Part shown: positions 12,001-36,728 of the stretch, one piece after another
Layout of the letters: each line of letters starts with the position of its first letter
Position numbering within the stretch: the first letter of the stretch is position 1
Source of the DNA: Marinobacterium sp.
GTDB taxonomy: Bacteria > Pseudomonadota > Gammaproteobacteria > Pseudomonadales > Balneatricaceae
Reading direction: 5' to 3'
DNA: 38,081 bases
NCBI GenBank assembly: GCA_003250495.1
Contig: QKGH01000286.1
Location: 1-38,081 of the forward strand
Program-made: the position numbers and the translations under genes
Notes under the pieces: model-generated
Database searches by the model: none
What the model saw: only the letters and a program-made list of their open reading frames with translations
What the model was told of the DNA's origin: nothing

Positions 12001-12693
12001 TTAGCGCAGCCCTCTGTGTCTGGCTTCGTCCAGCACCGCCTGTAGCACCTCCTCAATCGTCATTTGGGTGGTGTCCAGAATCACCGCGTCTGGCGCCGGC
12101 TTCAGGGGCGCCACAGCGCGGTTCATATCGCGGGCGTCACGCACTCGGATATCGTCTAGTATTTCACCAAGGCTAGCACCCACACCCTTGCTAATCAACT
12201 GGTTATATCGACGCCTCGCGCGCTCTTCTGCACTCGCATCGAGATAGATTTTCAGATCGGCGGCGGGAAACACGACAGTCCCCATATCCCGGCCGTCGGC
12301 AATCAGCCCCGGCAGATGGGCAAAGTCGCGCTGGCGGCTCAACAGCGCATCGCGAACCGGACCGAGAGCGGCCACCACGGACGCTTCGGAACCGGTCTCC
12401 TCGGTACGGATCGCCTGGGTCACCTCCTCCCCCTCGAGGACGATCTGCAACTCATCGCCATCGCCGCTGACAAAGCGGACATCGAGGTGGGCGGCCAGTA
12501 CGACCAGCGCCTCCACATCGTCCAGTGCCACGCCGTGATGGCGTGCTGCCAGCGCCGTCAGGCGATAGAGCGCTCCGCTATCGAGCAGTTGCCAGCCCAG
12601 TCGCTGTGCCAGCAGCCGACAGATCGTTCCTTTACCCGATCCTCCCGGTCCGTCGACAGTGATGACCGGGACCTGTTGTTCGCGGCTGACCAT
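12001..12693 (-). CDS. cmk: Cytidylate kinase
   Basis: Cmk phosphorylates CMP and dCMP using ATP, recycling CMP from RNA and lipid metabolism. The 230-residue product has the P-loop GPGGSGKGT (15-23), the nucleotide-binding [21 protein letters not shown] segment, and the lid RARRRYNQL. The length fits the long bacterial CMP kinase with its NMP-binding insert. ATG 12693 overlaps the aroA stop by one base (TGATG) and has GGAGGAGGG upstream, so it is translationally coupled to tyrA-aroA. Confidence 0.96.
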
Positions 12694-14900
12694 CAGCCCT
12701 CCTCCTTATATATATCGATACCTAATCGGCGGGCCTGTTCGACGAACTCGGGGAACACCTGAGCCACGGAGCCGCACGCGCTGACTTCGATCTGGCCCTG
12801 GGCAATCGCGGCGGCCACCGTCGCCGCCATCGCCACCCGATAGTCGCCGCCGCAACTGATACAACCGGCGTGCAAGCGCCCGCCCTCGATCGCCAGCCCC
12901 TCGGCACCGCGCTCGATACGCGCCCCCAGGGCACACAGCAGCTCGACCATCCGCTCCACCGAGGGATAGCGGCTGCCGGCGTCGAATCGCAGGAGGGTAC
13001 GCCCGCTGGCCGCGACGGCGGCGACCAGCAGCAACGGCAACTCGTCCCGCATCGTCGTCCAGTGCTCGGGCCCGAATTCGCCCCCTCGCAACGGGGCATA
13101 ACGGATCTGCAGATCGGCGACCGGCTCCCCGCCCTGCTCCCGGCATTCGAGCAACTGGATATCGGCGCCCATCGCCGTCAGCACCGCCAGCAAGCCGTTC
13201 CGGGTCGGGTTGACGCCGACCCCCTGTAGCCGGATCTCGGAGCCCGGCGTGATGCTCGCCGCAACGATGAAATTGGCCGCCATCGACCAGTCGGCCGGCA
13301 CCCGCAGGCGCTGCGCCTGCAGGCTGGAAACCGCGCTGACACACAGCTGGCCCGCGTCATCGACCGGGGCACAACCGAAGCTCGCCAGCATGCGTTCGGT
13401 ATGGTCGCGGGTCGGCGTCTGCTGCGTCATGCAGATCGGCTCCTGGCTGTAGAGCCCCGCCAGCAACAGCGCCGACTTGACCTGGGCACTGCGCAACGGC
13501 AATGGCGCCGTTACGCCATGCAAGGTCTGTCCGCCGCGGATACGTAACGGCGGTCGCCCATCCTCTGCACCCTGGATATCTGCACCGATCCGGCACAGCG
13601 GCTCGATCACGCTGCGCATCGATTCGCACATCAGCCCGTCATCGCCATACAGCTCGGTATCGAACGGCTGCGCCGCCAGCAACCCGGCCAGCAGTCGCAT
13701 CGAGGTGCCGGAGCCGCCCAGATAGAGGGCACCCGCCGGGCGCCGCAAGCCGTGCAGTCCCACCCCATAGACCCGCACCATCCCCAGGTGCGGTCCCTCG
13801 ATCACGACGCCGAGATCACGCAGTGCCTGCAGTGTCGCCAGGCTGTCCTCGCTCTCGAGGAACCCCTCGATATCGCTGATCCCGTCGGCGAGCGCCGCCA
13901 GCATGATGGCGCGATGAGAGATGGAACGGTCGCCGGGGACCTCCGCCCGTCCAGACAGTGCGCCGGCGGCGCGGACGATGAAGCGTAACGGATGTTTGTG
14001 TAGATCGGGTGAATAGGCCGAGCGTGCCAGGATACGCGAGAAGTGTTCCCGCGACGCCTTGGCACGGGTGAAGATCCCCAGCAGCGACTGGCTGTCGCCC
14101 GCGGCGATCGCCGCGCGCAACCGTCCAACACCGGCCGTGAAGCGATCGATCTGCGCCAGCAACTGGTCGCGATTGGCAAAACAGATGTCGTGCCACATGG
14201 TCGGGTCGCTGGCCGCGATGCGGGTAAAGTCCCTGAAACCACCGGCGGCATAGCGGAAAATATCGGTATTCTCCGCCTCCTGCGCCAGCGTATCGACCAG
14301 CGAAAACGCCAGCAGATGGGGCAGATGGCTGGTCGCCGCCAACACCTCGTCATGGCGCTGCACATCCATCTGCAGCACCTCGGCACCGACCGCCTGCCAC
14401 AACCGCGCTAGCGCCAGCGTGGCCTCGGGGCTCGACTCCGGCAGCGGCGTCAGGATCACCTTGCGGCGCACGAACATCTCCGCATCCGATGCCGCCACAC
14501 CGCTCTTCTCGGTACCGGCAATCGGATGCCCCGGCACGAAACCCGGCGGCAGCCGTTCGAACTGCCGCCGCGCCGCGGCGACGATATTGCCCTTGGTGCT
14601 GCCGACATCGGACAACAGGGTATTGGGACGCAGATGGGGACGGACCTGGTCGAGTACCGTCTCCATCACCTTGACCGGCACCGCGAGGACCACCAGATCC
14701 GCCTCGGCCACTGCCGCCGGTAACGACTCGGCGACGCGGTCGATAACACCCAAGGTCACGCCGAGCTCGCACTCCGCCCGGTTGAGATCGTAGCCGACCA
14801 CCTCCTCCACGACATGCCGGCTGCGTAGCGCACGCGCCAGGGAGCCGCCGATCAGTCCGAGACCGACGATCAGCACCTTACGGGTGGAGAAACTCAGCAC
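12693..14900 (-). CDS. Fused prephenate dehydrogenase / EPSP synthase; EPSPS half looks degenerate
   Basis: A 735-residue fusion of TyrA and AroA, an arrangement known from pseudomonads. Residues 1-300 are an intact prephenate dehydrogenase: NAD motif GLGLIGGS (13-20), [20 protein letters not shown] (124-135), [13 protein letters not shown] and [17 protein letters not shown]. Residues about 310-735 align along the whole EPSP synthase fold ([34 protein letters not shown]), but active-site residues are changed. E. coli Lys22 is Arg325, Arg124 is Glu426, the Lys340-Glu341 pair of the KESDR motif is Pro646-Ser647, and His385 is Tyr687. Asp313 (Asp619), Arg344 (Arg650) and Arg386 (Arg688) remain. 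So tyrosine-pathway activity is likely and EPSPS activity doubtful. The GTG at 14900 overlaps the hisC end and has GAGG eight bases upstream; a TTG at 14930 is the alternative. Confidence 0.9.
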
Positions 14901-16000
14901 GCCAACACCCTCGCCAGCGCCTCCAGGCAACGACGGTTCTCCGCCTCCAGGCCGACGCTGATACGCAGGTGGTGCGGCATCGCATAGTTATCCAGCGGTC
15001 TCAAGATCACCCCTTCACGCAGCAGCGCCTGGTAGATCGGCGCCGTCGGCCGTGCCATATCCACGGTGACGAAGTTCCCGAACGACGGGATGTACTCGAG
15101 CCCAAGCGCCGTTAACCCGGCACAGAGCTGGCTCATGCCGGCGGCGTTGACCTCGATACTGCGCCGCAGGTACGCCTCATCGCCGAGCACCGCCTCTGCC
15201 GCGGCCAGGGCCGGGACATTGACGTTGAACGGCTCCCGCACCCGGTTCATCAGATCGGTGATCACCCGGTCCGCCACGGCGAAGCCGACGCGCAGACCGG
15301 CCAACCCGAACGCCTTGGAGAAGGTGCGCAACACCACCAGGTTCGGATAACGCGTCCGCAGCGCCAGCCCGTTGGCCAGCCCCTGGGCCGGATCGACATA
15401 CTCGGTGTAGGCCTCGTCCAACACCACGACCACCTGTTCCGGTACCGCATCGAGAAATGCCACCAGCTCGGGGCCAGTGAACGCGGTGCCGGTCGGGTTG
15501 TTCGGATTGGCTAGGAAGATGATGCGGGTACGCGGCGTCACGGCCGCCGCCATGGCAGCGAGATCGTGGGCGTAATCCCTGGCCGGGACAATCCGGGCCT
15601 GGGCATTGCACGCCTTGACCGCCATCGCATAGGCGATAAAGGAGTATTCCGAGTAGATCACCTCGTCATCCGGATGCAGAAACACCCGGGCGATCATATT
15701 CAGCAGTTCGTTGGAGCCGTTGCCGAGCGTGATGCACTCCGGGTCTATCCCATAGCGGGTCGACAGCGCCCGCTTCAGACGGTAGCCCGAACCATCCGGA
15801 TACAGGTGCATCTCGGCCAGCGCATCCCGCGCCGCGGCCAGCGCAACCGGGCTCGGCCCCAGCGGATTTTCGTTGCTGGCCAGCTTGACGATATCTTTCA
15901 CTCCCAACTCACGCTCCAGCTCGGATGCCGGTTTGCCAGGACGATAGGGTTGGAGTGAGGCAACGCCGCCGGTTGCCAGCGCAATAAAGTCAGCACTCAT
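14894..16000 (-). CDS. hisC: Histidinol-phosphate / aromatic aminotransferase, HisC-like
   Basis: PLP-dependent class I/II aminotransferase of 368 residues. Seen: LASNENPLGPSP near the N-terminus, ANPNNPTGTAF, the tyrosine-containing LDEAYTEYVDP, and the PLP lysine motif FSKAFGLAGLRVG, all HisC-type. HisC enzymes convert histidinol phosphate and 2-oxoglutarate. Copies placed between pheA and tyrA, as here, are thought also to transaminate aromatic precursors (phenylpyruvate, hydroxyphenylpyruvate). ATG 16000 follows GAGGA by nine bases. The stop overlaps the GTG start of tyrA-aroA. Confidence 0.9.
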   Translation of the reverse strand: MSADFIALATGGVASLQPYRPGKPASELERELGVKDIVKLASNENPLGPSPVALAAARDALAEMHLYPDGSGYRLKRALSTRYGIDPECITLGNGSNELLNMIARVFLHPDDEVIYSEYSFIAYAMAVKACNAQARIVPARDYAHDLAAMAAAVTPRTRIIFLANPNNPTGTAFTGPELVAFLDAVPEQVVVVLDEAYTEYVDPAQGLANGLALRTRYPNLVVLRTFSKAFGLAGLRVGFAVADRVITDLMNRVREPFNVNVPALAAAEAVLGDEAYLRRSIEVNAAGMSQLCAGLTALGLEYIPSFGNFVTVDMARPTAPIYQALLREGVILRPLDNYAMPHHLRISVGLEAENRRCLEALARVLAC

Positions 16001-16037: not shown

Positions 16038-16919
16038 TCAGAGAACGGCACAGGGAAAAGAACCGAGCCACTTGACGGCAGCGCCGGCAGACAGCAACGC
16101 CTGCTGCAACTGTTGCAGTGACTCCTCGTCCCCATGCCCCTGTAGTTCGATATAGAGTTGGCGAGAGTTGGAACCGTGCAGCGTCCGGGTCACCGGCGCC
16201 GCCTCGGCCTGGAGCAGCGCCAGCGGTTCGGACCCGGCGCCGGGTGTCAGCAGCAGGGCGCTCTTGTCCGCGCCGCTGGGGCCCACGTGCTGGCGACCGA
16301 GGACCAGAAACTCGACCCGGGTGTCGCTGTCGCCGCTGCGCCCGTGCTGGTGGATGCAGACCGCCACCTCGCCACAGGGACGCAGCTCGGTCAGCGCCAA
16401 CTGCGCGATCAGCGCATCGGCCACCGTGGCGCTCAGCGGCACCACTCCGTAATCGGCAGCTTTCTGCTCCAGGGCGCGAAACACGCTGGGCAGATCGTCC
16501 AGCACCGTGCACCGGGCGCTGTGACCGAAGTGCTTGGTCGCCGCCTGTTCGGCCAGCGCGGCGCCCACCCCGGGGGCGCCGGCAAAGACCACCTGCAGCG
16601 GTTGTTCATGCGCCAGGCAGACCGACATGATCTCCCGGAACAGACGCGCCACTTCCGCCGCCGGCAGCGGCCCTTCATTGCGGGCCATGACGGCCCGCAA
16701 TACCTGCGCCTCGCGTTCCGGCCGGTAGAATACGGCGTCCTCGCTGTCGAAACGGGCCTTGATCTGCGCTACCTGCTGCGCACATTGGGCCCGGGCGTTG
16801 AACAGTTGCTGGATCTCGCGATCGATGCGGTCGATCTCCCCGCGTACCACGGCCAGCGCCTGCTCCTGGGTTTCAACCACCCCTGAGTCACTGCCCGGCT
16901 GGGCTGTTGGTTCGGTCAT
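16038..16919 (-). CDS. pheA: PheA-like chorismate mutase with a degenerate, shortened prephenate dehydratase domain
   Basis: Pseudomonad P-proteins have about 365 residues; this one has 293. The AroQ chorismate mutase (about 18-106) looks complete: Arg26, Arg43, Lys54 and the YRPEREAQVL segment with Arg66 correspond to catalytic positions. The prephenate dehydratase part (108-209) is damaged. The GPEGTFS signature is AGAPGVGAAL and ENSTEG is LSATVAD. About 60-70 residues between CGEVAVCIH and FLVLGRQ are missing, and the Thr-Arg-Phe catalytic motif survives only as DTRVEF. The ACT regulatory region (about 217-293) ends with the expected LGSFPCAVL, but its phenylalanine-binding motifs are weak. 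It is in frame throughout. ATG 16919 has GGAGAGG five bases upstream. Likely a chorismate mutase with lost dehydratase activity. Confidence 0.88.
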   Translation of the reverse strand: MTEPTAQPGSDSGVVETQEQALAVVRGEIDRIDREIQQLFNARAQCAQQVAQIKARFDSEDAVFYRPEREAQVLRAVMARNEGPLPAAEVARLFREIMSVCLAHEQPLQVVFAGAPGVGAALAEQAATKHFGHSARCTVLDDLPSVFRALEQKAADYGVVPLSATVADALIAQLALTELRPCGEVAVCIHQHGRSGDSDTRVEFLVLGRQHVGPSGADKSALLLTPGAGSEPLALLQAEAAPVTRTLHGSNSRQLYIELQGHGDEESLQQLQQALLSAGAAVKWLGSFPCAVL

Positions 16920-16954
16920 CCGCACCTCTCCGTCACTCTCCCGCCACCCCATGT

Positions 16955-18037
16955 TTAGCCGTGTACCCGCTCAAACTCCTGCATGAACGCCACCAGCGCC
17001 GCCACCGACTCCTCGCCGACGGCGTTGTAGATACTGGCGCGCATCCCGCCGACGGAGCGGTGCCCTTTCAGGTTCAGCAGGCCGGCCGCTTCCGCCTCGC
17101 TGAGGAACGGCTTGTCCAGCGCACTGTCCGCCAGCGTGAACGGCACGTTCATGATCGAACGGTTCGGCTTGGCGATCGGGTTGGCATAGAAGGCGGAGGC
17201 GTCGATGGCGCTGTACAGCATCTCCGCCTTGCGCAGGTTGCGCTGCGCCATCGCCTCGACACCGCCCTGCGCCTTCAGCCACTTGAACACCAGGCCGGTC
17301 ATGTACCAGGCGAAGGTCGGCGGCGTGTTGTTCATCGAGTCGGCGTCGGCATGCAGTTTGTAGTCGTACATGCTCGGCGTGCCGGCCAGGGTCTGTCCCA
17401 GCAGATCCTCGCGCACGATCACCACGGTCAGGCCGGCCGGGCCGATGTTCTTCTGCGCCCCGGCGTAGATCAGGCCGTAACGGCTGACATCGATCGGACG
17501 CGACAGGATGTCGGAGGACATATCGGCCACCAGCGGCACCGCGCCGGTCTGCGGCACATAGTCGAACTCCAGACCGCCGATGGTTTCGTTGGTGGTGTAG
17601 TGCACGTAGGCGGCATTGCTGTCGAGCTTGAGCTCGTCCTGGCCCGGCACGCGCAGGAAACTGTCGGCTTCGCTGGACGCGGCCAGGTTGATGCTGGCGT
17701 AGCGCTTGGCTTCCTTCATCGCCTTGCCGGACCAGATCCCGGTGTTGATATAGTCCGCCGAGCCCTTACCCCGCAGCAGGTTCATCGGCACCATGCTGAA
17801 CTGACTGGTCGCCCCACCCTGCAGGAACAGCACCTTGTAGTTTGCCGGGATCGACAGCAGGTCGCGCAGGTCCTGTTCGGCGGTTTCGGCAACCGACACG
17901 AACTCGGCACTGCGGTGGCTCATCTCCATGATCGAGAGCCCTTTACCATGCCAATCCAGCATCTCCTGCTGAGCTTGTTCCAGAACCTCCTGCGGCAGCG
18001 CAGCGGGACCTGCGCTGAAGTTGTGCTTACGTGTCAC
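16955..18037 (-). CDS. serC: Phosphoserine aminotransferase
   Basis: SerC makes 3-phosphoserine from 3-phosphohydroxypyruvate with glutamate (and acts in the PLP pathway in many bacteria). The 360-residue product begins [19 protein letters not shown], the diagnostic SerC start. It carries [18 protein letters not shown] and the PLP lysine in [19 protein letters not shown], and ends [20 protein letters not shown]. Start is GTG 18037 with GGAG nine bases upstream; the in-frame extension to 18079 lacks family similarity. It lies between gyrA and pheA, as in pseudomonads. Confidence 0.96.
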
Positions 18038-18067
18038 TCTGTTTGACTCCAGACAAGGAAAACGGGC

Positions 18068-18088
18068 ACGGGAGCCCAAGGCTCCCGT
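18068..18088 (-). terminator. Hairpin just after gyrA
   Basis: ACGGGAGCC (18068-18076) pairs perfectly with GGCTCCCGT (18080-18088) around a three-base loop. It begins four bases beyond the gyrA stop. On the - strand a weak GTTTTCCTT follows a few bases later. It probably attenuates transcription between gyrA and serC. Confidence 0.55.
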
Positions 18089-33997: not shown

Positions 33998-36700
33998 TCA
34001 GCCCACAGAATCCCCAACTGCCCACGGCTGCAAAAACGCCTCGACCTTCGCTTCGATATGACTCTCGACGGTTTTCAAGCGGAGCAACGGGATCCCGCTC
34101 TTTCTCAGAATGCTATCTTTCAATGCATCCCGCTCGGCCTGAGGCTCCGCCTCATGAGATCCACCATCGACCTCGATCACCGCCAGCGGCGCTTTCCCCA
34201 CTTTGAAATACAACACAAAATCGCAACTGGCCCGGTTTCTCATAAAATCCCGCTCCCGCGCCGTCAAGGCCTCGTTGCTCAACGAGGCCAACTGGATCAG
34301 GGCGACCTGGGAGTGAAACGTCAGCGTTCGGTATGCCGCCCTGGACAACAGGTCGCGCAGTATCTGCGCCACAATCTGTTCCGACCTGTATCGAGAATCG
34401 CCTGGCCGCAGCCTGTTATTGAGGCGCTCCAGAGACTGATCGTATTCCTTGTAAAGCAGGTCGAAAGCCGATACGACAGGTGCACGATGAATCTGTTTTT
34501 CGCCCGCGTAGTATTCGATATACCGTACCAACGCCGCGATATGTCCGTTGCCTGCGGCAAAGACATCGTCCCCCGTCACCAGAGTAAACCTGTTCTTGGC
34601 CCTCGATACAGCCACATTGACCATGTGGGGATCATCCACAAAGCTTAAGCTTTTCTGGCCAGATCGCTTATCCGACACCGTGGAAAAAACAATCTCCTCA
34701 CACTCCTGCCCCTGAAATTTATGCACAGTATTTTTAACAAAGTCGGCTGGCAAATGCTTATGAGAAAGCCTGATCTGCTCGTTGTAAGGGGCGATGAATC
34801 CTCGTTTATGTTCTTCATCCCAAGCACTTACGCCATCCAACTTGAGCGTCTCGAGCAGTGAGTCCAACTCTCGCAGATTCGAATTGTTGCGTGCGTGATT
34901 TCCTTTAGCCGTGACCAGCAGCCGCAACGGCTTTTCACCGGCGTCCGTTGTCATCGGAACCAGCTGGTTGTCGTAAAACTGCTGGTTGCAGAACTGGATG
35001 ATCCGGGGATGGCAGCGATAATGCTCTTTCAATAACGTCGTAGGTATCGAATCCTTAAACACACCGATACTCGAGTCGAGCAGACTGTATTTCTCACAAT
35101 CGTAGTGCTCAGCGGGTGGCATGATACCCAGATGCACCGGAATATGGGGGAGCTGTTTTCTATCGCCGACGACGATCAGGTTCCTGGCACACCCCAACGA
35201 CAGTATCCCCGGGATGATGTCCTGCTGCGAGGCCTCATCGATGATGACATAATCGAGAATTGCCCCACGCCCGATCGAGTTGATGATGGAGTGCGTGCTG
35301 CTGCCGATAATCGGGAACCGTTGTACAAACTCATCAAACTGCCTACGGTAATTCTCCGCATCGAATGCTTTCCGCTGGGGGATACTCCGATGAAGATAGC
35401 GTTTGAAAAACGCCATCGATCCGGCAACCAACTCCTTCAGCAACGCCTTGACGTTGCCACGCGTCAACTCCGCCCGAAAACCGGCCAACGCCGCTTCCTT
35501 TTCCCGCCGTGATTGCTCGTAATAGTGCAGCTGTAAGGAGTAGATAGCGGTCTTGCGCCTTTCCCAATCCCTAAAGGGCTTCGTACGCAGGATCTTAAAA
35601 TTGAGCAACAGCTCGACCCGATCCTTAAGTCCAATACGTTTTTCAGCAAGAAGGGCCAGATATGCCATCAGATCTGCAACTTGCTGCGGAGCTAGCTTGT
35701 ACTTATCCAGCGGGACCGGGGACGATGCCAGATTTTCGCGCTGCCATTGCAGTAGATAGCGCTGCTCTATAGCCAACTCGTCAATCTCGACCTGGAGCCG
35801 TGCCACCTCATTTTGAGCATGAAGATACTGCTTCAACTTCTGCAGAACAGCTTGAATCTGTTCCATGCTGGGCGCTGACAGCGACTGAACCGATGGCACA
35901 GCGGGTAGATTGTCGAAAAAGCCCTTGCGATTATCGGTACTGCCCAGCTTAGCGACCAGATAATCCAACCCGGCCTTGCTCAGCTTTTCATAAACATTCG
36001 CCACCGCAGCATTGTTATTGGATAGAATCGCGACGCTGTTTCCGCGCAATACGATATTGGCGATGATATTCAATATCGTCTGAGTTTTACCCGTGCCTGG
36101 TGGGCCTTCGATTATGCTGACTTGCGAAGAGAAAGCCTGTTCAACCGCCTTGAGTTGACTTTCGTTGACACCGAACGGGTAGATGAAACTGCCGGTCTGT
36201 TCCCGCAGACGATTCCGCCCAGTGCAGTAGGCCTGCAGTACCGTATCCCCGAAAGGAAGTATGTTATCCAGCTGATGCAGCACATTGTCGGCAATCGGCT
36301 TGTCTTGCGGTTGCGCCCGCTCGGCTCGAGTTTTTGCCACACGCACAAAATAGCTGAATACTGCCTCATCCTTGAACCTGGCCTCGGGACTGAACGCAAT
36401 ATCACCCAGGTTCATTACGTAGATTTTTTGACTGCCCCGATACTGAACGACGGCATATGTCCCACCATAGATCTCCACACTATCGACAGCACTGAAGGTT
36501 CTCCCCCCATCGCTGGAGACGAGTTGCCCCCGCACCACTTCCGTGGGATCAATGCGGCAATCGCTGAGAGGTCTGTGAAAGGACTTTCCGGAGGGGAAGC
36601 GGCAGGTCAGCATCAACTCTCCCCGTTGATCTCCCCACCATATCTTCCAACTACTGATTTGCTTGGTTTTGTCTTCACCGTTTACGCAGATGGAAACCAT
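33998..36700 (-). CDS. SF1 (UPF1-like) helicase with C-terminal DUF2726-type nuclease-like domain
   Basis: A 900-residue protein not normally found between guaA and tadA. The N-terminal 150 residues are not recognised. The helicase core follows: NESQLKAVEQAF (Q-like), Walker A GPPGTGKTQTI (199-209), Walker B IIDEASQQD (486-494), VVGDRKQLPHIP, EHYRCHPRIIQFCNQQFY, TVHKFQGQECEEIVFSTV and NVAVSRAKNRFTLVTG, the AAA_11/AAA_12 type (COG1112-like). A charged coiled coil is inserted at about 280-325. The C-terminus (about 770-890) resembles DUF2726, a PD-(D/E)XK-like fold: SEQIVAQIL, CDFVLYF and VIEVDGGSH. GC content looks lower than in its neighbours. ATG 36700 has AAGG six bases upstream; TTG 36715 is alternative. 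A defence role is plausible but unproven. Confidence 0.85.
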   Translation of the reverse strand: MVSICVNGEDKTKQISSWKIWWGDQRGELMLTCRFPSGKSFHRPLSDCRIDPTEVVRGQLVSSDGGRTFSAVDSVEIYGGTYAVVQYRGSQKIYVMNLGDIAFSPEARFKDEAVFSYFVRVAKTRAERAQPQDKPIADNVLHQLDNILPFGDTVLQAYCTGRNRLREQTGSFIYPFGVNESQLKAVEQAFSSQVSIIEGPPGTGKTQTILNIIANIVLRGNSVAILSNNNAAVANVYEKLSKAGLDYLVAKLGSTDNRKGFFDNLPAVPSVQSLSAPSMEQIQAVLQKLKQYLHAQNEVARLQVEIDELAIEQRYLLQWQRENLASSPVPLDKYKLAPQQVADLMAYLALLAEKRIGLKDRVELLLNFKILRTKPFRDWERRKTAIYSLQLHYYEQSRREKEAALAGFRAELTRGNVKALLKELVAGSMAFFKRYLHRSIPQRKAFDAENYRRQFDEFVQRFPIIGSSTHSIINSIGRGAILDYVIIDEASQQDIIPGILSLGCARNLIVVGDRKQLPHIPVHLGIMPPAEHYDCEKYSLLDSSIGVFKDSIPTTLLKEHYRCHPRIIQFCNQQFYDNQLVPMTTDAGEKPLRLLVTAKGNHARNNSNLRELDSLLETLKLDGVSAWDEEHKRGFIAPYNEQIRLSHKHLPADFVKNTVHKFQGQECEEIVFSTVSDKRSGQKSLSFVDDPHMVNVAVSRAKNRFTLVTGDDVFAAGNGHIAALVRYIEYYAGEKQIHRAPVVSAFDLLYKEYDQSLERLNNRLRPGDSRYRSEQIVAQILRDLLSRAAYRTLTFHSQVALIQLASLSNEALTARERDFMRNRASCDFVLYFKVGKAPLAVIEVDGGSHEAEPQAERDALKDSILRKSGIPLLRLKTVESHIEAKVEAFLQPWAVGDSVG

Positions 36701-36728
36701 AAGCGCCTTACGCAACAGCGACTCAAAG

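Follow-up and report, generated by a model that had tools for sequence, protein, structure and literature searches.

The AroA half of a TyrA-AroA fusion protein in Marinobacterium sp. is, judging from comparative sequence analysis, probably a pseudoenzyme that is kept for the folding of the joint chain and for coupling to cmk after functional replacement of its reaction. The fusion lies in a 38,081-nucleotide stretch of DNA (contig QKGH01000286.1), here called the window. The original prediction had proposed, from this stretch alone, a retained pseudoenzyme domain, and that proposal is now well supported by a second, intact AroA, by a degenerate state common to whole genera and by omega values far below 1.

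The degenerate EPSP synthase domain

The fusion gene is encoded on the minus strand at 12693..14930 (745 codons from a TTG start, or 735 from a GTG at 14900) in an operon with the order serC, pheA, hisC, tyrA-aroA, cmk. Its neighbours are on the same strand. A class-V aminotransferase found by family scan (16955..18079) and an Aminotran_1_2 protein (14894..16000) are presumably serC and hisC, named from synteny, and the downstream, overlapping open reading frame (12001..12693) is one that we take, from its sequence and synteny, to be cytidylate kinase (cmk). Within the fusion, TyrA (prephenate dehydrogenase; PDH_N and PDH_C) and a linker occupy 13992..14930, minus strand; Pfam assigns the first 290 residues to prephenate dehydrogenase and residues 320-731 to PF00275, with 254 bits. 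The EPSP synthase (EPSPS) domain, residues 314-745 (12696..13991, minus strand), combines a full modelled fold with a degenerate active site; the interval first proposed for it, 12693-13950, located the domain and left out approximately 13 residues at its N-terminus. The whole protein passes the full-length TyrA/AroA bifunctional model NF011381 (933.5 bits; cut-off 902), whereas the aroA equivalog TIGR01356 is narrowly failed (282.5 bits against 287.25). A genome search of the window's assembly with PF02153 found the TyrA of the fusion as the only match.

Active-site residues were compared with E. coli K-12 AroA (b0908), whose numbering we follow, and the roles of the residues and their division into S3P-site and PEP-site positions are taken to be those described for the E. 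coli enzyme. On alignment, every replacement that had been predicted was present in the window's copy: Lys22 to Arg (13926..13928), Asn94 to Gly (13713..13715), Arg124 to Glu (13623..13625), Lys340-Glu341 to Pro-Ser (12960..12965) and His385 to Tyr (12840..12842), all on the minus strand. The assignment of K340 and E341 adjoins a three-residue gap, where the HMMER and MAFFT placements agree. This copy also carries N336G and K411Q, at sites where intact fused copies usually have E and T, and is unchanged at S23, R27, G96, T97, R100, S169, Q171, D313, R344 and R386. The frame is open and the EPSPS fold spans the whole domain in an AlphaFold2 model of the fusion (pLDDT 86.4; input alignment of 59 sequences, intact copies among them), in line with the conserved fold first claimed. 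Comparison with solved EPSPS structures gave Coxiella burnetii AroA (3slh) and the Acinetobacter baumannii EPSPS domain (5bs5, residues 312-756) as the closest folds, 42-44% identical over the domain; the model at 314-745 matches 3slh with a Z of 54.8 and an rmsd of 2.0 over 427 residues. In the alignment Coxiella AroA has the K, N, R, KE and DH residues of the canonical motifs, which the window's domain has lost.

We then scored 16 key sites in 106 distinct fused copies, calling a domain degenerate when at least four of them were changed. No changes were seen in 77 copies, one in 2 and four or more in 27, the last class including all eight copies of the window's genus group, its own among them. 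Given this split, and the position of the whole genus group within it, degeneration goes beyond chance. Of the 16 sites, His385 alone is altered in each of the 27 degenerate copies, the others varying by lineage, and S23, R27, R100, S169, A170 and Q171 are present in every one of the 27 while PEP-site residues are mostly gone. As a yardstick for retention we took the 159 positions that count as invariant because 98.5% or more of the 77 intact copies agree there. Outside the active site, degenerate copies retain 88% of these in lobe 1 and 65% in lobe 2; S3P positions are retained at 79% and PEP/catalytic positions at 42%. Measured per lobe, the excess loss at the active site has a p of 0.014 in lobe 2 and of only 0.13 in lobe 1.

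The surviving D313, R344, R386 and Q171 and the preserved fold of the window's copy, and the retention of K340, E341 and R124 in the Marinobacterium halophilum group and in two more distant genomes (G113 and G163), could be read as signs that EPSP is still produced at a modified active site, or that the domain has acquired a new enolpyruvyl-transfer reaction. We regard such activity as very unlikely. K22, R124, E341 and H385 are replaced together in the window's copy, the replacements differ by lineage in a manner more like drift than like a newly conserved site, and a separate intact AroA is present.

A stand-alone AroA and the distribution of degeneration

Three PF00275 proteins were found in the window's assembly, namely the fusion, MurA and, on contig C231, a stand-alone AroA. 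The search for a separate aroA that accompanied the original prediction is thereby answered by this gene (G000:C231), which is intact at 21 of 21 checked sites; across 39 copies, the window's own and those of 38 other genomes, no deviation was seen at the 21 sites. We label it class I from its likeness to E. coli. The gene adjoins ogt, a synteny shared by G001-G006, G012 and G026, and in a tree of stand-alone AroA it is placed with its own genus and G010, G025 and L123. Since the ogt-aroA arrangement is common and the protein groups with its own genus, we consider it native rather than contamination. This tree and the operon tree described below agree in 18 of 36 splits.

The window's assembly is made up of 490 contigs, with 87.5% completeness and 4.7% contamination, and either the contig bearing the stand-alone AroA or the unusual domain might in principle be foreign to the organism. 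That either is an assembly artefact or a contaminant seems to us extremely improbable. Among named isolates, M. lacunae, M. litorale and M. zhoushanense have the same degenerate domain, and their counterparts G002, G001 and G005 carry the stand-alone AroA with the same ogt synteny. Both genes, the fused one in its degenerate form, are also held by each of seven single-contig genomes (G009, G012, G025, G113, G126, G151 and G173), where the original prediction had named a closed genome lacking another aroA as the observation that would speak against it. On the evidence of the isolates and the single-contig genomes, an artefact was rejected for the lineage.

By its best matches among named loci, which are 60-67% identical, the organism is Marinobacterium-like. 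Residues were checked and AroA searched for in 75 genomes, comprising 41 of the 57 in a first set and all 34 in a second; the other 16 of the first set had no fused copy, a free-standing or partial one, or one whose sequence did not enter the comparison. The fused domain is degenerate in 27 of the 75, and 26 of these 27 have a stand-alone AroA. It is intact or near-intact in the remaining 48, nine of which have one (the near-intact copies, G018 and G030, each carry a single change, G96A). Seen from the other side, 39 of the 40 genomes in which no stand-alone AroA was found retain all 16 key sites. The association between stand-alone AroA and degeneration is strong when kinship is ignored (Fisher p 1.6e-11), and kinship-aware pairs, at four independent with about two agreeing and none opposing (p 0.5), are too few for power. 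The lone degenerate genome in which no stand-alone AroA was found, G007, is 90% complete at 2.4 Mb; it has chorismate synthase, and AroA and its ogt neighbour were both not found there, so that an assembly gap is the likely cause. Decay is not an automatic result of having a spare gene, as nine genomes pair one with a fused copy that is intact or nearly so. An intact fused copy accompanies the spare AroA in four Neptunomonas, in G017, G020 and G042, and, in addition to the nine, in G121.

A survey of the order covered 106 genomes, of which 12 showing a stand-alone AroA among the matches listed were taken further. Two further families, represented by six genomes, have a degenerate fused domain, accompanied by a stand-alone AroA in all six. 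At such divergence alignment is less certain, and with that qualification the fused domain of G113 and G163 carries K22R, N94Q, G96A and H385P, while G095, G126, G151 and G173 are all changed at R27, N94, G96, T97, R100, Q171, K340, E341 and H385 and retain K22, S23, S169 and R344, in open frames of 740-752 codons. In five other genomes (G110, G128, G141, G162 and G169) a stand-alone AroA is the sole EPSPS apart from MurA-sized proteins, and G040 and G048 have a free TyrA together with a stand-alone AroA.

To place these losses we used an operon tree of HisC, Cmk and TyrA from which the EPSPS columns were excluded (quick search, SH-aLRT support only). The Marinobacterium and Nitrincola lineages group in a single clade (support 88), whose 27 rows comprise 25 degenerate copies and 2 that are domain-free; monophyly of this main degenerate clade is only moderately supported. 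M. jannaschii, which has an intact domain, falls outside it, and G011 and G031 each stand apart. With 39 rows, a smaller tree instead places the M. rhizophilum group with the Neptunomonas group (92), which breaks the main clade, and so more than one loss may lie within it. If the two further families are separate origins, degeneration has arisen at least five times. The two domain-free genomes branch next to Nitrincola tapanii within the degenerate lineages, and both have the stand-alone AroA. In G029, hisC, a 316-codon tyrA and cmk follow one another with no EPSPS domain between, and the TyrA frame of G016 is short as well (333), again with no EPSPS fused to it. Given that both keep TyrA without the domain, TyrA does not strictly need it.

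Constraint on the retained domain

We evaluated selection by dN/dS over the domain, as the original prediction had suggested. Under a codon model the degenerate EPSPS domain gave omega values of 0.086 (g1), 0.132 (g3), 0.120 (g6) and 0.142 (g42), well under 1 in every clade and indicative of retained purifying selection, with dS near saturation in most of the omega comparisons. TyrA in the same genes gave 0.058, 0.050, 0.056 and 0.033, respectively, so that the degenerate domain stands at approximately 1.5-4.3 times the TyrA value, and intact EPSPS gave 0.032, 0.043 and 0.057 in three sets. Compared with TyrA, the dead domain is under relaxed yet still substantial constraint. The three closest degenerate pairs, from the M. 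rhizophilum group (dS 0.36-0.54), gave 0.09-0.11 for EPSPS and 0.04-0.07 for TyrA; other pairwise EPSPS values include 0.069 for G005-G006 and 0.218 for G024-L080. When the 11 degenerate pairs with dS below 1 were pooled, EPSPS stood at 0.235 and TyrA at 0.101, and 219 intact pairs gave 0.080 and 0.114. Three outlying pairs of distant taxa, G024-G000, G007-G000 and G007-G024, reached 0.42-0.54, values that we assume to reflect underestimated dS in GC-rich genes. Each of the four degenerate clades had a higher omega in lobe 2 than in lobe 1, although raw dN for the G095 group was higher in lobe 1.

The end of the gene offers one reason for keeping the frame. The TGA stop of the fusion (12693-12695, minus strand) overlaps the ATG of cmk (12691-12693, minus strand), and the sequence aaggaggaggg at the end of the EPSPS domain (12697-12707, minus strand) resembles a Shine-Dalgarno element and probably serves as one. 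In all 27 degenerate copies the fused stop lies -4 to +3 nucleotides from the cmk start, and many intact copies are alike. Coupling to cmk is thus an inherited reason for retaining the reading frame. The domain could then be a passive passenger, its frame held open solely to reach the cmk ribosome-binding site and its amino acids irrelevant, and the overlap or near-overlap in every degenerate copy, the raised omega relative to TyrA and the pooled value for close pairs all fit that account. We nevertheless think it unlikely. An omega of about 0.1, in both the clade models and the three closest pairs, needs constraint at the level of amino acids; lobe 1 residues outside the active site are 88% retained; and the AlphaFold2 model keeps the EPSPS fold, though its alignment included intact copies. 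Coupling does not explain the low omega along the domain, which favours folding of the joint chain together with coupling.

A regulatory role for TyrA, also raised in the original prediction, is possible and unsupported. In such a scheme the degenerate domain would be an allosteric module of TyrA that senses, for example, S3P through its surviving half-site, and the six residues kept in all 27 copies after most of the PEP site had gone, along with an omega well below 1, are what recommend it. Retention of S3P residues, however, is not above the background of the lobe (P 0.13; polar residues 0.37). R27, R100 and Q171 are lost in G095, G126, G151 and G173, where the domain persists and S23 and S169 stay, and G016 and G029 manage without the domain. 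The domain-free genomes and the loss of R27 and Q171 argue against general ligand sensing, and we hold a regulatory module to be distinctly unlikely, more so than a passive passenger.

These observations allow us to hypothesise a sequence of events for the preferred reading, a pseudoenzyme kept for folding and coupling. A stand-alone, E. coli-like AroA would have been gained and would have taken over the EPSPS reaction. The fused active site would then have relaxed, with His385 lost from each degenerate copy of the family and other residues drifting differently by lineage, while selection went on keeping the domain folded. A misfolded C-terminal half would presumably cost the cell TyrA, the only prephenate dehydrogenase found in the assembly, and translation would have to run through the end of the domain to the likely ribosome-binding site of cmk. 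The domain may therefore serve as a scaffold and coupler, and not as a catalyst.

The pheA gene, known systems and meaning

A second bifunctional enzyme of the operon is also decaying. A pheA gene is expected to encode chorismate mutase, prephenate dehydratase (PDT) and ACT. The window's pheA (16038..16952, minus strand) has an intact chorismate mutase half and a truncated dehydratase half, at 304 residues compared with approximately 365; PDT matches with 26.8 bits over positions 5-82 of 181, and little remains of the dehydratase domain's second part. A similar deletion occurs in 14 of 90 taxa, all of them EPSPS-dead or EPSPS-lost (12 of 27 degenerate, 2 of 3 domain-free, 0 of 1 near-intact and 0 of 59 intact), and requires at least four changes on the tree, with differing ends. 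In the other 15 degenerate taxa the PDT domain is full-length. A second PDT was present in 22 of 22 genomes searched and is intact in the window's own assembly, and CM_2 was found once in 10 of 10 genomes. Among seven truncated PheA proteins scanned, ACT was recognised in G007, G012 and G016, was weak in L121, and was not recognised in the window's copy, G010 or L123.

With both bifunctional enzymes of this operon half dead, what it still encodes here appears to be a tyrosine set of chorismate mutase, HisC and TyrA, and it may serve tyrosine synthesis. An extension of this idea, which we offer tentatively and think improbable, is that in this clade two half-dead bifunctional enzymes make the aromatic operon a tyrosine-only module, in which the dead halves (the truncated dehydratase with or without ACT, and the pseudo-EPSPS) would act as regulatory or assembly surfaces coordinating chorismate mutase, HisC and TyrA, and EPSPS and prephenate dehydratase would be supplied by genes under separate control. 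That PheA has suffered a parallel loss suggests that the operon as a whole is specialising, and that the decay is not an isolated accident.

The TyrA-AroF fusion of Pseudomonas syringae, where AroF is EPSPS, is a close parallel. According to Song et al. 2005 (PMC1173090), the EPSPS half of the same fusion is disabled and a stand-alone EPSPS has been acquired, and the authors already consider the EPSPS remnant as a possible regulatory domain. The two cases differ in that approximately 200 domain residues are deleted in P. syringae, whereas in the Marinobacterium case the whole domain is kept, the changes are substitutions and several genera are affected. The stand-alone gene that they describe is Agrobacterium-like, and the one here is E. 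coli-like. A second parallel is Aro1 of Candida albicans, another multi-enzyme of the shikimate pathway with a dead, full domain. According to PMC9074039, its dehydroquinase domain is complete and dead by substitution and Dqd1, an unrelated stand-alone isoenzyme, performs the step; the loss varies by species with the stand-alone gene and was shown biochemically. Aro1 differs in domain, kingdom and protein, and the Marinobacterium case is known from sequence and has a second fused enzyme in decay. Our search of the open-access literature, by title and opening of the abstract, gave no report of this full-length, dead TyrA-AroA case, and nothing in it joined 5-enolpyruvylshikimate-3-phosphate synthase with pseudoenzyme, or Marinobacterium with shikimate and AroA. 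A dead fused domain replaced by an isoenzyme is of a known kind, and the Marinobacterium variant of it is full-length, recurrent and partly paired with PheA decay.

Given that the fusion passes NF011381 and automatic annotation calls it bifunctional, metabolic models would wrongly credit the fused gene with EPSPS activity, and glyphosate-target predictions made from it would be wrong. For the family, the system is a replicated natural experiment on the fate of half of a fused enzyme once its reaction is done elsewhere. Intact copies with a spare gene, copies with one change (G018 and G030), full-length dead copies (27 and a further 6) and domain-free genomes (G016 and G029) coexist among relatives, and with all four states at hand the choice between folding, coupling and regulation can be asked directly.

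Range of states of the fused EPSPS domain

At the near-intact end, the fused copies at loci L048 (genome G018) and L050 (genome G030) carry G96A, the same change as in the glyphosate-insensitive E. coli EPSPS structure 1mi4, with the remaining key sites intact. A stand-alone AroA was found in addition to the fused copy in both genomes. Degeneration is extreme in the TyrA-AroA proteins of four further genomes (L234-L237 in G095, G173, G126 and G151, respectively), where the domain scores 132-162 bits and has lost the majority of its ligand residues; the frames are open over 740-752 codons.

The domain is absent at L154 (G029), where hisC, tyrA and cmk are consecutive and TyrA is followed by a short tail alone. 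The lineage formed by this locus and L155 (G016) is nested in the tree among lineages with a degenerate EPSPS domain.

Neighbouring genes and the cmk junction

Within the window, pheA (16038-16952, minus strand) retains an intact chorismate mutase half and a truncated prephenate dehydratase half. Deletion in the latter was observed in 14 of 90 taxa, in all of which the EPSPS domain is dead or missing. Elsewhere in the window, a 905-residue protein with AAA_11/AAA_12 helicase domains and DUF2726 is encoded at 33998-36715 (minus strand).

At 12691-12707 (minus strand), the end of the EPSPS domain meets the start of cmk, with a TGATG overlap. The final codons of the domain likely form the cmk ribosome-binding site.
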